DNA from: Anaerolineales bacterium
GTDB taxonomy: Bacteria > Chloroflexota > Anaerolineae > Anaerolineales > Villigracilaceae
Assembly (NCBI GenBank): GCA_020060625.1
Contig: JAGUZU010000101.1
Coordinates: forward strand, 1 to 33,065
Length of the DNA: 33,065 bases
Direction of reading: 5' to 3'
In this document: positions 13,918 through 19,076 of the stretch, one piece after another
How positions within the stretch are numbered: the stretch's first letter is position 1
How the letters are laid out: every line of letters begins with the position of its first letter
The notes under the pieces: model-generated
The model's database searches: none
What the model was told of the DNA's origin: nothing
What the model saw: the letters and a program-made list of their open reading frames with translations, nothing else
Program-made: the position numbers and the translations under genes

Positions 13918-16353
13918 ATGAAGACGCAAACCAACCTCCCTGCGCATCGCGCGAACCCGATTGGGCGGGAAAAAGACATCCAAGCTTTGCAGGAATTACT
14001 GGCGAGCGATGATATTCGCCTGTTGACGTTGACGGGGCTGGGCGGCATTGGCAAAACCACCATCGCCTTGCAGGTCGCTTCGATGCTGGAAGGCGATTTT
14101 TCCGACGGCGTATATTTCGTCAATCTTGCGCCTGTCACTCACAGCGAAGCAATTCTGCTTGAGATCGCGCACACGCTCAAAGTCCGGCAGGAAGCGGGGA
14201 AGGACACATTCGAAAGTCTCAGCGAAGCGCTGTCCGGGCAGGACATCCTACTCATCCTCGATAATTTCGAACATGTCATGGCGGGGGCTTCCTTTGTAAA
14301 TAAACTGCTTCAAGCTTTGCCTCAAATGAAGGTGATCGTTACCAGCCGCGAGCCTTTGCGTTTGCGCGCCGAACAGGTCTATCCGCTTCCGCCGCTTTCC
14401 ACCGATCACGCCGCGGATCTATTCGTTCAACGCGCCCGATCCGTCAAGCCGGATTTTGCGCCAACGAAGGAAGACAATCGCGCCGTCGCCGAGTTATGCG
14501 AACGGCTGGATGGATTGCCGCTTGCCGTGGAACTTGCCGCGCATCGCGCCAGACTCTTCACGCCGCAAATCATGCTCGCCCGTCTCAAATCGGACCTCGA
14601 GCCTGCTTCCCGCATGTTGAACCTTTTCTCCGCCGGAGCCAGAGACCTGCCCGAACGTCAGCAATCCCTGCGAAAGACAATCGCCTGGAGTTACAGCCTG
14701 CTCAATGAAGACGAACAACGCGCGTTGCGATTTGCTTCCGTTTTTCCCGGCACGTTCAGTATTCAATCGCTTTCCAAAATATTATCCGTGGATGAAGTTG
14801 CCGTGATGGAGCTTGTCTCCTCTCTTGTGGATAAGAACCTCATCAAGCCGTCGTTTGAACAGGATGAAGCCGGGCGTTTTTCGATGCTTGAGGCGATCCG
14901 TGAATTTGCCTGGGACGAGATACGTCACGCGGATGAACTCGGGCAGATCAAAAAAACGTACATGTGTTTGTACCTTGAACTTGCAAAAGCGGCGGAAACC
15001 GGATTGCAGGGCGCGGAACAAACCCATTGGTTGAAGGTCATCGAAGTGGAATTTCCCAACTTTGCTTTGGCAATGGAAATGGGCATGACCGCTCCGGTTG
15101 ATTCTCAACTATGGCTGGACGGATTATGGCTTCTTTCCCATTTGGAACAATACTGGCATATCCACGCCCTGTTCAATGAATTGACGACATTGTCCAACCG
15201 CTCGCTGGACCAAATCGAAAAGAGCCATTCCACAGATGAAAACTTTCTTTCCCTAAAGGCGCATTTGTACAGCCTCGCCGGAACCTGCTCCTGGCTTTCA
15301 ACAGATTTTAAGCGCGCATGTGATCTTCATGCAAAAAGCCTTGACTTGTACCGTCAATTGAATGATGAAAGCCGCGTCGCTTTTTCATTGAACAATCTGG
15401 CGGTCAATTTTGGCGAACAGGGTGATTATGAAAAGGCGCTGGATTATTATGGTCAGAGCCTCGCGCTCTATGAACGACTCAGGGATGACTGGGGGCAGGC
15501 GCGCCTGCATCTAAACCTATGTAATTATCATTTGTATGTCACCCATGATGCCCAACGCATCGTTTCCCATGCCGAAAACGGGCTGCGCTTTGCGGAAAAA
15601 CTCAACGATCCATTCCTGATTGCTGCTGCGAGTTACAGTCTTGGCGAAATCCTCCTAATGGAAGGCAATAATGTCGATAGGTCTCGGGAACTGTACAAAC
15701 GGGCGAACCAACTTGCGCGTGAGTTTCAATTTCAACAGGTGCTGACCTGGTCATTGGTGGGACAGGCAGCTTTGTATATAGCAGAAGGTGATTTGGAACA
15801 GGCTTCAACCCATATCCGTGAGGGATTATCCCTGGCGGTTGAGCAGTCAGATCGACTCATCATCAGCGGATATTTGCGGCTTTCAGCATGGCTTTGTTCA
15901 GTCGGGCGGAAGCCATTACAAATGGCATTTCTGGCGGGAGCCGAAGAAGCAATAAAAGAGAAGTCGGGCGCTTTGTACACCATTCCTGACCTGTGGAAGG
16001 AACATCCAGATGTCATCGCTTCGACGCGCGCTGAACTTGGCGATTCGATCTATGACGCGGAATGGGAAAAGGGGCGGGCGCAGCCTCTTGAGCAAGTCGT
16101 CCATTTTGTTATGGAACACTGCCTCCTAAAGGAAGCCCAACCCGCCTCTACCTCGACCTTGAACCTGCTCACCGAACGCGAACAGGACGTGCTCCGATTA
16201 CTCATGCAGGGAAAAACGAATGATGAAATATCGCAGGAATTGGTGGTTGTGTTAAAAACAGTGGAAAAACACGTGGCGAATATTTTGAGAAAGTTGGGAA
16301 TGAAGAACCGCACTGAAGCCGCAGCATGGGCAATGGAGAATGAGATTAAGTAA
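13918..16353 (+). CDS. STAND ATPase / TPR / LuxR-type transcriptional regulator
   Basis: 811-residue signal-integrating regulator of the MalT/AfsR-like STAND class. The NB-ARC-type ATPase has Walker A GLGGIGKTT at 40-48 and Walker B LLILDNFEH at 111-119, with the following VIVTSREPLRL and the GLPLAVELAA motif near 195-205. A winged-helix part (LLNEDEQRALRFASVFPG) follows. Residues about 430-690 are TPR-like repeats (LNNLAVNFGEQGDYEKALDY), the usual inducer-sensing part. The C terminus is a LuxR helix-turn-helix: LTEREQDVLRLLMQGKTNDE with VVLKTVEKHVANILRKLG. It would bind DNA after ATP- and ligand-driven oligomerisation. It is monocistronic, with no recognisable target beside it; the Cys-rich operon converges on its terminator. 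Confidence 0.93.
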   Translation: MKTQTNLPAHRANPIGREKDIQALQELLASDDIRLLTLTGLGGIGKTTIALQVASMLEGDFSDGVYFVNLAPVTHSEAILLEIAHTLKVRQEAGKDTFESLSEALSGQDILLILDNFEHVMAGASFVNKLLQALPQMKVIVTSREPLRLRAEQVYPLPPLSTDHAADLFVQRARSVKPDFAPTKEDNRAVAELCERLDGLPLAVELAAHRARLFTPQIMLARLKSDLEPASRMLNLFSAGARDLPERQQSLRKTIAWSYSLLNEDEQRALRFASVFPGTFSIQSLSKILSVDEVAVMELVSSLVDKNLIKPSFEQDEAGRFSMLEAIREFAWDEIRHADELGQIKKTYMCLYLELAKAAETGLQGAEQTHWLKVIEVEFPNFALAMEMGMTAPVDSQLWLDGLWLLSHLEQYWHIHALFNELTTLSNRSLDQIEKSHSTDENFLSLKAHLYSLAGTCSWLSTDFKRACDLHAKSLDLYRQLNDESRVAFSLNNLAVNFGEQGDYEKALDYYGQSLALYERLRDDWGQARLHLNLCNYHLYVTHDAQRIVSHAENGLRFAEKLNDPFLIAAASYSLGEILLMEGNNVDRSRELYKRANQLAREFQFQQVLTWSLVGQAALYIAEGDLEQASTHIREGLSLAVEQSDRLIISGYLRLSAWLCSVGRKPLQMAFLAGAEEAIKEKSGALYTIPDLWKEHPDVIASTRAELGDSIYDAEWEKGRAQPLEQVVHFVMEHCLLKEAQPASTSTLNLLTEREQDVLRLLMQGKTNDEISQELVVVLKTVEKHVANILRKLGMKNRTEAAAWAMENEIK

Positions 16354-16383: not shown

Positions 16384-17361
16384 TTATGGGCACCCGCCGC
16401 CGGTTGGGTCGGGGATGCAAGCGGTTGGCTCTTCCCTCGTTTCGTCTTCAGTATTCTCTTCAGTATCCTCTGGAGGACGTGGTCGGTCGGGCGCGGAGCA
16501 GCTTGGAAGGGTGATTCCCATTTGCAGTTTTTCCATGTGGTTGTAATCGGGACGGCATGAGAATCCTTCCTGTGTGATTTGATAATCCAAACAGACGAAC
16601 TTGAGCGAATTGGCAGGTCTGGAACCGCAGCATGAATTTTGTTGATCCAGGAACATTCCAGCGCCACAACCTGGGGATATGTTGGTCTGCCCTTCTGGGA
16701 CACAATAGAATGCGTGATCCGATTCCAGAGTGGAGGTTTCGATTTCGTAACCATCGGGGCAGGGATTGCCGGATACCTCGCATGTCTCTGGTCCCAAAGA
16801 ATCGTTAATTTTGATGAGAGCTCCGCTGGGTCCGCTGCAGGTAAAGGCGGCTTCATAGATTGTTTGAAAGCCATCATACACATTTTGTTCGGTGGGCTTT
16901 ATGCTGCTCCAAAAACAAAGCCCGGCTGGATCGCTTTCCAGTGGTATCCCTTTGGAGAGATTTTCCATAATTTGCTCCGCAACTGAACCAGAAACTTTGT
17001 AGGTCAATTGGCGAAAGGAAGTTCCGTCAGACCCACAGTAGGAACTGTCGTCGGAGGCATATGATGTGCCGCAGTAGGGAGGTTTTGCATTCTCCGTCAT
17101 TTCACAAACCGGAAGTTGTTCCGCTGTTGGCTTGGCTGCAATTGGGAGCGGCGCCTCTGTGGGAACGGGAGTTAGCGAGGGTGTGTTTGAATTCAGGTCA
17201 TTGGCTCCGCATATGCCGCCCGGTAAAAAACCGAACTTGCAGCCCATGAAATATAAACCGATGAGGATTGCGCCAGTGGCGCAGGTAAGCATAATCTTGG
17301 GCGAAGTTTTCGATATGCTTGCCATGATTTTTATTGCGCGCGAATCGCTTGTAGATGGCAT
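16384..17361 (-). CDS. Cys-rich exported protein with N-terminal membrane anchor
   Basis: 325 residues, no family recognised. A signal-anchor helix lies at about 22-42 (MLTCATGAILIGLYFMG), followed by a short Thr/Pro linker (SLTPVPTEAPLP) and an outside region with many cysteines (about 20). One stretch, C194-x6-C201-x18-C220 ending in CVPEG with GYEIE inside, resembles the last part of the four-Cys modules in the neighbouring 502-residue protein (GYELD...CDIP), so the two genes probably share ancestry. The tail at 290-312 is Glu/Pro-rich. AAAAGGAG precedes the ATG. It is 18 bp after its neighbour, in one operon, and ends at the shared terminator. An extracellular, disulfide-stabilised role is inferred. 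Confidence 0.75.
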   Translation of the reverse strand: MPSTSDSRAIKIMASISKTSPKIMLTCATGAILIGLYFMGCKFGFLPGGICGANDLNSNTPSLTPVPTEAPLPIAAKPTAEQLPVCEMTENAKPPYCGTSYASDDSSYCGSDGTSFRQLTYKVSGSVAEQIMENLSKGIPLESDPAGLCFWSSIKPTEQNVYDGFQTIYEAAFTCSGPSGALIKINDSLGPETCEVSGNPCPDGYEIETSTLESDHAFYCVPEGQTNISPGCGAGMFLDQQNSCCGSRPANSLKFVCLDYQITQEGFSCRPDYNHMEKLQMGITLPSCSAPDRPRPPEDTEENTEDETREEPTACIPDPTGGGCP

Positions 17362-17379: not shown

Positions 17380-18888
17380 TTACCTTCTGTCTTTTTCTTC
17401 ACGTGTCACAATGACATCATCCGCGCTGCCGGAGTCATCAGTCTGGTTTCTGAGAAAATCGTTCCCATCCACTATGCCGTCCGAATTGAAGTCGCCACTG
17501 GTTGGATGTGGTGAAGAACTTGGTTTGGGTTTCGGTTTGGGCTTGGGTTTTGAATCGCCAGATCCGCCAGTGCTGCTGTTGCTCCCGCTGGAATTTCCTG
17601 TGTTGCCTGATGTGCTGCCATCATCCTTGTTTGCCAGGAGGATGTGTTCACGGGTTTGCGGGGCTGGGTCGTTTGGTTTGTCTTTCAAGTCATACACTGT
17701 TTTTATTTCAGCTCTTCTCACCCTCGCCGCGGAGTCGCGCACTTTTTGTATGGCGGGTAGAAGCACGACGCCAACCACAATGCCCAAGCCAAGTCCGGGC
17801 AGCCAGCCGGAAGGTGGCAAGGTACTGGAACTTGAATTCGGAATGTCGCAGTGATAGATATGCGCGCCCGAAGCATGGTCCAATTCGTACCCGCTGCCGC
17901 CGTCTGCGAGGCAACTCAAGGAAGATATCCAGCAGGTCAAGTAACCGCATTCTTCATCCCAGGAACTGCCTTCCGTGGCGCCGTCATCGGTTGGCGCTGC
18001 GGAAATGGCAGGGGCTTCCTCTGTCGGCGCGGATTTTTCGGGAAGTTCACAGGTTGCAACCGTTGCACCTTTGCCTGTATCAATTTCATCGTAGAGACCG
18101 CCATCCTCATCGCATTGCGCGAAAAAGTCCGACATGCAGTTCTCGTATCCATCGCCGAAATGACAGACGCCTGCGTATTTGTATTTTGTAGGGTCGTCGT
18201 CTGAATCGGCGGGGCTGGTAATGGGCAATCCAAGATCGGGGAGTTCCTCGTGCGGGATGCAATAGAAGTCGTATTTGGTTCCGCCATCGGCGTAAATATC
18301 AACTTCGATCACAAGAAGCTCGTCTTCGCAGGTAAAGTTTTCACGACACTCAGCAAAGTTTTCGCTGGTGCAGGTTCCCAGATAGTCGTCTTCCGGGTAG
18401 GCGAAAGGCATGGGTGTGGGCGGAAGAACAGCCGGGACTTTGCAGGTCAGGGTGACTTCTCCATCTTTGATCGTCGAGGAAACTGTTCCGCCTACATGCT
18501 CACATCCATTTGTGAACAGCCCGATACAGCGTGTAACTTCCTTGACGGAACCTTTGCAGGTTCCCGACCACTCAGCGCCTGCCGAATCGGAGTCATCCGT
18601 TGAGTCTGTGATGGGAAAAGGGGTGGCGGTAGGAATCGGCGTATTGACAGATGGAGGCGGATTTTGGTTCCCGCTGCTGGAACTGTTGTCACTGTCATCA
18701 TCTTCGTCGTTCTGGTCGGTACTGCCTTCTCCGCCGCCGCCCTGCTCAGGCGGGCAGGGAATCACCGCGCCGGTTGCATCGTGGCAGACCGGGTCCTGCG
18801 CGAAAACAATTGCTCCCATGGACGCGGGAGCGCCTGTTGCAAACAGGAACGCCAACAAAAAGGAAACGATAATAAGTTGTTTTTTCAT
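17380..18888 (-). CDS. Exported protein with four tandem Cys modules, TM helix and Ca-loop
   Basis: 502 residues. A signal peptide ends near 30 (VFA-QDP). Acidic Ser/Asn/Pro linkers follow, then four similar modules of 40-45 residues with Cys at 111/121/129/149, 173/181/187/210, 242/251/259/280 and 314/319/326/347. The pattern is C-x(4-9)-C-x(5-7)-C-x(19-22)-C, usually entered by an aromatic-x-G/E and left by an xxP or xP. I know no family with this pattern. A transmembrane helix at 363-380 continues into LLPAIQKVRDSAARVRR, then a (KP)n stretch and one dockerin-like calcium loop, GDFNSDGIVDGNDF at 465-478. AGGAG precedes the ATG. First gene of the operon, divergent from an ECF sigma factor. 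Confidence 0.75.
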   Translation of the reverse strand: MKKQLIIVSFLLAFLFATGAPASMGAIVFAQDPVCHDATGAVIPCPPEQGGGGEGSTDQNDEDDDSDNSSSSGNQNPPPSVNTPIPTATPFPITDSTDDSDSAGAEWSGTCKGSVKEVTRCIGLFTNGCEHVGGTVSSTIKDGEVTLTCKVPAVLPPTPMPFAYPEDDYLGTCTSENFAECRENFTCEDELLVIEVDIYADGGTKYDFYCIPHEELPDLGLPITSPADSDDDPTKYKYAGVCHFGDGYENCMSDFFAQCDEDGGLYDEIDTGKGATVATCELPEKSAPTEEAPAISAAPTDDGATEGSSWDEECGYLTCWISSLSCLADGGSGYELDHASGAHIYHCDIPNSSSSTLPPSGWLPGLGLGIVVGVVLLPAIQKVRDSAARVRRAEIKTVYDLKDKPNDPAPQTREHILLANKDDGSTSGNTGNSSGSNSSTGGSGDSKPKPKPKPKPSSSPHPTSGDFNSDGIVDGNDFLRNQTDDSGSADDVIVTREEKDRR

Positions 18889-18959
18889 GCTCTCTCTCCT
18901 TATAAATTTGGGCTTGCTATTTTGTTGGGTAATTTTGACGGAGAAGGTCGTTTTTGTCG

Positions 18960-18975
18960 GTAGGGTTAACCCTAC
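18960..18975. promoter_or_regulatory. Perfect 16-bp palindrome between sigma and Cys-rich operons
   Basis: GTAGGGTTAACCCTAC, exactly self-complementary with no spacer, 71 bp upstream of the Cys-rich operon and 102 bp upstream of the sigma gene. Candidate operator for a symmetric dimer. Confidence 0.45.
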
Positions 18976-18987
18976 TCTTTACCCCCA

Positions 18988-19018
18988 CTATGAGTTGAAG
19001 CCGGTGTTATACTCATAG
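18988..19018. promoter_or_regulatory. Inverted repeat and -10-like element upstream of the sigma gene
   Basis: CTATGAGT (18988-18995) is inverted at 19011-19018 with a 15-bp spacer. The spacer and right arm contain an extended -10-like TGTTATACT (19005-19013), so binding here could control the sigma promoter. The unit GGTGTTATA recurs at 19037-19045. Confidence 0.35.
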
Positions 19019-19031
19019 AAACTTCTAAAAT

Positions 19032-19063
19032 CCGGCGGTGTTATAGGATGCAAAATCCGCCGG
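19032..19063 (+). promoter_or_regulatory. Hairpin in the sigma-gene leader next to its ribosome-binding site
   Basis: CCGGCGG (19032-19038) pairs with CCGCCGG (19057-19063). The second arm abuts TAAGG, the only Shine-Dalgarno-like sequence for the TTG start at 19077, so the folded mRNA could limit translation. It could equally be a DNA operator. Confidence 0.35.
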
Positions 19064-19076
19064 TAAGGTTTTTAAC

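Follow-up and report, generated by a model that had tools for sequence, protein, structure and literature searches.

In published work, the Escherichia coli activator MalT is described as a switch in which ligand binding to the sensor domain leads to ADP/ATP exchange, oligomerisation and activation (PMC10427625; PMC4381067; PMC6468293), and MalK is described as anchoring MalT at the E. coli membrane while transport is idle (PMC10427625). The locus considered in the current work lies within a DNA stretch of 33,065 nucleotides from an Anaerolineales bacterium (hereafter the window), and encodes a regulator which has in common with E. coli MalT and the STAND-LAL LuxR proteins an NB-ARC (NOD) domain, a TPR sensor and a C-terminal LuxR HTH, as well as, in common with MalT, a candidate site close to the promoter. 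MalT governs sugar uptake genes, whereas the genes linked to this cassette encode surface and exported proteins; the candidate site itself, the palindrome GTAGGGTTAACCCTAC, is presumably unlike the MalT box. With a probability of roughly 60%, we read the locus as a regulator-operator-effector cassette for the inducible display of a fast-diverging, modular surface protein, here named CysA (Cys-module surface protein). A literature search of titles and the beginnings of abstracts returned nothing on the CysA protein, the cassette or the palindrome site, and the string GTAGGGTTAACCCTAC did not occur in the papers searched.

Table 1. Position of the cassette features within the 33,065-nucleotide window.
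Feature	Position	Strand	Details
MalT-type STAND regulator: NB-ARC, TPR region, C-terminal LuxR/GerE HTH	13918..16353	+	convergent with CysA
325-aa Cys-rich gene downstream of CysA	16384..17361	-	variable slot between CysA and regulator
CysA	17380..18888	-	502 aa counted from ATG
Tail motif QTREHILLANKDD	17620..17658	-	residues 411-423; recognisable in 5/8 full-length proteins
Transmembrane-like segment	17749..17805	-	residues 362-380; Lys/Arg 0 in 20 residues before, 6 in 20 after
Module 4	17839..17964	-	
Module 3	18040..18180	-	predicted strand 2-7, helix 12-25, strands 29-34 and 39-45; pLDDT 94
Module 2, "core" class	18250..18387	-	found in 8/8 full-length proteins compared
Module 1	18433..18573	-	
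N-terminal Cys loop C35-x9-C45 (CHDATGAVIPC)	18754..18786	-	
Sec signal peptide, probable	18799..18888	-	residues 1-30, V-F-A end before Q31
-10-like box CAAAAT	18932..18937	-	22 nt after palindrome
Palindromic candidate operator GTAGGGTTAACCCTAC	18960..18975		16 bp, upstream of CysA

CysA is composed of a leader, an N-terminal Cys loop, an acidic/Thr-Pro linker, four modules, a transmembrane-like (TM) segment and a tail (Table 1), its cysteines being located at residues 35, 45, 111, 121, 129, 149, 173, 181, 187, 210, 242, 251, 259, 280, 314, 319, 326 and 347. The initial annotation, made from the sequence of 17380-18888 (minus strand), had described four copies of the pattern C-x(4-9)-C-x(5-7)-C-x(19-22)-C with a Pro soon after the last Cys of each, and this description is exact: the open reading frame, the Cys positions and the spacings (9/7/19, 7/5/22, 8/7/20 and 4/6/20 for modules 1 to 4) all agree, and a Pro is found at most three residues after the last Cys in each of the four modules. 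The fourfold pattern is far beyond chance, as 100,000 shuffles of the mature sequence contained no copy in 98,251 cases, one in 1,736, two in 13 and never more than two. Eight full-length proteins were compared, these being that of the window and L046-L052 from a contig scan of genomes (L046-L050 and L052 were taken as G036, G025, G064, G034, G004 and G018, and L051 as G390, each being counted once). In all eight, the total of mature cysteines equals two, contributed by the N-terminal loop, plus 4n, with n being 2, 3, 3, 3, 4, 4, 5 and 5. A protein with a single module is encoded by G247, and a fragment at a contig end of G327 comprises one module and a second that is cut off.

The AlphaFold2 prediction of module 3 with 29 aligned modules (mean pLDDT 94, pTM 0.66) has a beta-alpha-beta-beta order, and a model of the four-module ectodomain based on 8 sequences (mean pLDDT 55.5) has this same order in every module. 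The structure predictions which the initial annotation had proposed as a check consequently yield one secondary-structure order common to all four modules, at high confidence for module 3 only. In the predicted fold, C1 and C4 are located at the ends of strands 1 and 3, respectively, and C2 and C3 in the early and the late part of the helix; because of this beta-alpha-beta-beta topology, only C1-C2 and C3-C4 should be near each other, and the strand/helix order of the models thus suggests that these two pairs probably form the disulfides.

The databases searched (Pfam, NCBIfam, PDB and BFVD) contained no named family to which the module could be assigned, in agreement with the view taken in the initial annotation. 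For the whole CysA protein no Pfam or NCBIfam family was retrieved at E<=10, and PDB sequences provided no match to CysA and none above chance for the modules. Structure comparison of the module by Foldseek produced nothing at E<=0.001 (best E 0.37 in PDB and 0.055 in BFVD), and comparison by VIA-align 2 reached a best Z of 6.5, none of the matches being accepted. Among the 29 modules, weak Pfam E values were obtained for one or two members each, i.e. PepSY (0.014), SPARC_Ca_bdg (0.022), Kazal_1 (0.022), DUF333 (0.037), CLIP_1 (0.059) and Flg_new_2 (0.29). The chain path resembles that of the designed protein MOPD-1 (7rjf, a half-ferredoxin beta-alpha-beta-beta; Z 6.5, rmsd 1.9 over 45 residues), although identity is 9% and this Z lies within the range that the tool labels a common arrangement. 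CS-alpha-beta (defensin-like) folds, which have six or more cysteines and whose signature is a helical CxxxC plus a CxC in the final strand, share with the module the beta-alpha-beta-beta order and the presence of cysteines in helix and strands; the module, in contrast, has four cysteines, two of which lie near opposite ends of the helix and one in the final strand, and neither the CxxxC helix motif nor the CxC strand. It is very improbable that the modules represent a remote branch of DUF333 (PF03891; helix Cys, GG, hairpin Cys) with an extra first strand. The second half of the module has the same C-x3-G-x(about 20)-C spacing and hhalign pairs C3-C4 with two DUF333 cysteines, but at a probability of 8%; the best profile match (E 0.037, 1 of 29 modules) does not reach the curated cut-off; and none of the 29 modules has the NPAS-x2-C start or the C-x2-W end, with an additional Cys, that are seen in 7 aligned DUF333 sequences. 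DUF333 was therefore rejected as the identity of the module.

Across the eight full-length proteins the modules fall into positional classes. An alignment of six proteins (genus set: window, G036, G025, G034, G004 and G018) has 41 invariant columns, 16 of which fall in the core class, to which module 2 of the window belongs. The last class, represented in the window by module 4, occurs in 6/8 proteins, and the class preceding it consists of two alternative types. Comparison of class profiles reveals clear homology between modules 1 and 3 (96%, E 2.7e-9), probable homology between modules 4 and 3 (78%, E 1.9e-5) and weak homology between modules 2 and 3 (17%, E 0.0015). When each class was left out in turn, members scoring above every shuffle numbered 7/8 for the module-3 class, 5/8 for the first, 1/7 for the last and 0/8 for the core class. 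The scores of window modules 2 and 4 in this test were not above those of the best shuffles (2-4% of shuffles scored as high as module 2 and 9-10% as high as module 4), and the case for these two modules therefore rests on how their cysteines are spaced, where they lie and which fold is predicted for them. One module is 94% identical at the protein level between L046 and L050 and lies inside a 174-nt stretch at 82% identity, the two proteins being 42% identical overall and the remainder of the gene exhibiting only short stretches at about 73%. Interspecies exchange would be the simplest reading of this alignment, with strong local conservation as the alternative.

Of 400 genomes sampled from the order, 12 contain modules and belong to three genera of a single family, and one further genome with modules is from a fourth genus; in the samples searched, the module is thus restricted to four genera of one Anaerolineales family. 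The genus search gave matches at E<=0.1 in 11 of the 57 genomes, nine of these being confident (E<=0.001). The matches in G026 (E 0.0074, partial, with a stop inside) and G003 (E 0.0986, 21 positions), both genomes being without the palindrome, were dropped as chance, as was a second weak place in G034. In a phylum sample of 400, the genome of the window matched, as did one sequence with two internal stops that was taken as chance, and a scan of viral contigs gave 17 pattern matches with no relative among them. In the window's genome the only module matches at E<=0.1 are the four CysA copies. The "related piece" assigned previously to the downstream gene (C194-C220) is not borne out, since the module profile scores -0.5 bits for the whole protein and -3.1 for C201-C220, and this 325-aa product was rejected as a module protein. 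Its C-terminal 43 residues (ending CIPDPTGGGCP) are shared with the end of an L052 lipoprotein carrying an FGE domain (BLAST E 0.003).

All eight full-length proteins begin with a short hydrophobic leader ending x-A-Q, indicative of probable Sec export, and in all eight a second hydrophobic segment follows the modules, preceded by 20 residues with 0-1 Lys/Arg and followed by 20 with 3-6 (hydropathy and leader assignments were made with a custom script rather than a trained predictor). This charge asymmetry would place the modules outside and the tail inside, so that CysA is predicted to be anchored in the membrane. Of the earlier proposal of a secreted disulfide-rich family in this lineage, the lineage restriction holds, but simple secretion does not, given the TM-like residues 362-380 with their positive far side (8/8). 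Nine zero-module relatives in the genus (L062-L066 and L069-L072), found at other loci, consist of a leader, a Cys loop, a Thr/Pro-rich stalk and a TM; their loops, like those encoded by other palindrome-bearing exported genes, resemble the N-terminal loop of CysA, and an ECF sigma factor gene adjoins 3/9 of them in the same direction. Weak matches of the TM profile (L067, L068 and L073) were left out of this set, L073 being a pilin-like protein matched at E 0.003.

The TM of L048, L050 and L052 reads like a type IV pilin helix (VILIGLLLPAVQKVREAAAR; in L050, AVAIPAFMKNARRAKTAEAVTNVKKMYD). A type IV pilin identity (TM LLPAxQKxRxAA) was rejected, the prepilin leader G|FTxxE being absent before the TM in the aligned TM regions; a Pfam scan of 6 proteins gave DUF1427 as sole match, in one protein and at E 0.059. 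The window tail (17452-17496) and the end of L050 contain a dockerin-like half repeat (GDFNSDGIVDGNDF and GDINSDGDVDGSDF, respectively), though the tail is predicted to be cytosolic. A dockerin was also rejected for the window tail, which has the single half repeat GDFNSDGIVDGNDF instead of two Ca-binding DxNxDGxxDxxD and no Pfam match at E<=10. The tails of L047, L051, L052 and L164 contain other short motifs, for example DYLLEIDGIKGEA or YIKLGDIKGE, that resemble the start of Hcp-type tube proteins.

The regulator of the window matches the NB-ARC/P-loop ATPase profile (PF00931, E 5e-13, residues 18-208), TPR_MalT in its sensor region (PF17874, E 3.2e-13, 50.1 bits against a cut-off of 45; TPR_12, E 1.2e-15) and the LuxR/GerE HTH (PF00196, E 1.9e-18, residues 750-805), the HTH being alignable in all 12 cassette regulators. 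Such a regulator is separated by 0-2 genes from the module gene in 12/12 testable loci (window, G036, G004, G018, G025, G064, G034, G020, G013, G390, G788 and G247; the module contig of G327 ends, placing it outside this count). Seven of these, i.e. the first seven listed, are syntenic genus loci in which the same ECF sigma gene is located beside CysA and, on the other side, 0-2 variable genes are followed by the MalT-type regulator. At other chromosomal places (G390 and G788), or beside uvrA in another genus (G247), the regulator and the module gene are arranged head to head; in G247, where linkage was established via two contig ends sharing the same 5' sequence, the divergent regulator lies on the other side of the module gene and not between it and uvrA. 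No regulator was found at the ECF locus in any of the 19 module-less loci fetched (from 41 module-less genus genomes with an ECF match; 19 of 20 fetched loci were kept, L105 of G013 being removed as its modules are on other contigs), and in these 19 uvrA lies inside the fetched stretch in 15 and directly adjoins the ECF gene in 13. When six module genomes were searched with the window regulator, the cassette copy was the best match (36-58%) and the sole one reaching the HTH, other matches ending by residue 656 of 811 at no more than 37% identity; two paralogues in the window's own genome likewise gave no alignment to the LuxR HTH. The ECF sigma factor was rejected as specific partner because it is present irrespective of modules, in 49 of 57 genus genomes.

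The palindrome GTAGGGTTAACCCTAC is the sole match in the window at up to 3 mismatches (chance expectation 0.04) and is located upstream of all eight full-length genes, five copies being exact and three having one mismatch. At up to one mismatch it precedes the module gene in 10/10 visible promoters, including those of the cassettes situated elsewhere in the chromosome (L051/G390 and G788); outside these ten are G020, whose module promoter lies beyond the contig and whose palindrome precedes a lipoprotein gene, and G013, whose palindrome lies near a contig end before an undefined start. In a genus search at up to one mismatch, the palindrome was retrieved from 9 of 57 genomes (11 sites), which are exactly the nine with confident modules, and from none of the remaining 48, while a reversed control pattern gave single sites in five of the 57. 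An exact search of the family, in which twenty palindrome-free genomes were new and outside the module search, retrieved GTAGGGTTAACCCTAC from 10 of 152 genomes: six of the genus, three other known module carriers, and G788. The latter genome, found blind by its palindrome, also has a regulator 54% identical to that of the window and a two-module gene (by profile score). The two ends of one G788 contig (L162 and L163) carry the same stretch in opposite orientation, so that one of the three palindrome sites of G788 is probably an assembly duplicate.

The motif A[AT]A[AC]T occurs at a single fixed offset from the palindrome in 13 of 16 sites, compared to five or fewer for the best offset in 2,000 shuffles, a test that is partly post hoc, the wording of the motif having been chosen once the first 13 sites had been seen. 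Among the later sites, those of the G788 970-aa gene, G327 and G247 fit the motif and that of the G788 module gene does not. The 22-nt gap between palindrome and hexamer, taken with the usual distance to the start site, would place the centre of the palindrome at about -42.5, and the region around -42.5 is the class II activator position of LuxR-type proteins. Next to this promoter, window positions 18990-19076 contain inverted CCGGCGG/CCGCCGG copies around TATA-like boxes in the ECF leader, and these recur in the syntenic loci.

Additional palindrome sites precede exported genes, namely that of a 584-aa protein of L049 with an N-terminal loop and a C-terminal hydrophobic segment, those of membrane proteins of about 970 aa, and those of lipoproteins (L047 and G020). 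The approximately 970-aa membrane protein with HExxHxxGxxH lies behind the palindrome in G390 and G788, with a truncated look-alike in G327; its representatives L169:8607-11510 and L162:2705-5620 have the sequence HEGGHNYGLGH, which we take to be a metzincin motif, a C-terminal hydrophobic segment, an N-terminal Cys loop and the same palindrome. A second STAND-like protein (L169:5915-8434, with AAA/TPR matches; L165:2340-4490) adjoins the palindrome-bearing gene of this type. Lipoproteins with a Cys-rich C-terminus are encoded between the module gene and the regulator at L052:7234-8688 and L127:1486-3150. That of L052 contains an FGE/SUMF1 domain and that of L127 is alike, the end of the latter presumably resembling an S74 intramolecular chaperone.

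Over the seven syntenic loci (L051 was left out, having no ECF neighbour), the mean identities of the ECF factor, the surface protein and the regulator are 90.9%, 49.0% and 40.6%, respectively. The cassette is not alone in diverging fast, as the S41 peptidase and DegV genes on the same flank vary as well (42-75% and 65-94% identity to the window, respectively, and 88-98% for uvrA). Within the regulator, mean identity between cassettes amounts to 70% for the HTH, 51% for the NB-ARC and 26% for the TPR region, a contrast which fits a constant site that may be read by a conserved HTH while the sensor changes between species. LuxR HTHs are generally conserved, and the 70% identity is therefore weak evidence for a common site. 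Divergence of the surface protein and of the regulator was found to be uncorrelated (rho -0.06 over 21 pairs), giving no sign of matched co-evolution across the seven loci.

Alternatively, the modules may form an antigen-like or phage-facing variable layer, which evades or captures binders through module gain, loss and exchange, the role of the regulator being confined to tuning expression. The low identity of surface protein and regulator beside the 91% of the ECF factor, the range of 1-5 modules per protein, the 94% identical module within proteins that are otherwise so different, and presence or absence at a fixed site would all suit such a layer; we nevertheless consider it rather unlikely, since a core class kept in 8/8 proteins is not expected of a freely varying antigen, the flanking S41 peptidase gene diverges fast too, and no relative was recovered from the viral contigs scanned. 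Somewhat less probable again is that CysA acts as receptor for its own regulator, its ectodomain sensing a ligand and its cytosolic tail (QTREHILLNKDD-like) holding or freeing the STAND activator. The charge rule predicts a cytosolic tail in 8/8 proteins, and the tail motif, found in five of the eight full-length cassette proteins, is absent from the short tails of the nine zero-module relatives; yet the tail of L049 has 15 residues and no motif despite the presence of regulator and palindrome, L047, L051 and G788 have an altered motif or none at all, and the divergence of the protein does not follow that of its supposed partner. A published precedent for such tethering is MalK holding MalT at the E. 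coli membrane (PMC10427625).

An extension of the receptor proposal, marginally more doubtful than the proposal itself, is a self-contained loop: an interchangeable two-disulfide ectodomain would read the ligand, and the tail would control the STAND activator that sets, via the palindrome, display of the ectodomain and, in some species, of the metzincin-motif protein. A loop of this kind, if real, would amount to a receptor-NLR-like switch in bacteria, contained in one cassette and equipped with exchangeable recognition domains.

In the preferred reading, that of an inducible regulator-operator-effector cassette, the MalT-type STAND ATPase with its LuxR HTH would, by analogy with MalT, be switched on by a cytosolic cue acting at the fast-diverging TPR sensor. 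The regulator would then bind the candidate operator GTAGGGTTAACCCTAC near -42.5 and recruit RNA polymerase as a class II activator; the palindrome, its co-occurrence with the modules and its spacing to the -10-like box are observed features of the loci, to which regulator binding and the start site would add the functional link. Activation would yield a Sec-exported single-pass protein that presents 1-5 beta-alpha-beta-beta modules on a low-complexity stalk and keeps its C-terminal tail in the cytosol, each displayed module probably being closed by two disulfides (C1-C2 and C3-C4); the architecture of CysA is read from its sequence, and we infer the topology and the disulfide pairing from it. 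In some species the same site may also govern the 584-aa surface protein, the metzincin-motif membrane protein and lipoproteins which it precedes. When induced, the protein would most probably serve in adhesion or recognition at the surface of the cell, the variable part being how many modules it has and of which type; this role is a guess made from the variation in module number and the apparent exchange of modules, and the weakest step of the proposal.

The 49% identity of the surface protein and the 41% of the regulator beside the 91% of the ECF factor mark a quickly changing locus, on a flank where the S41 peptidase varies too. An extracellular domain without a named family obtains a definition through its Cys register, predicted fold and range, and is tied to a specific regulator and to a 16-bp site, a search for which led blind to one more cassette. 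Of the whole finding, the regulation lends itself best to testing and was the least expected: with the regulator, its candidate site and the exported targets all legible side by side, a surrogate host can be used to test the regulon.
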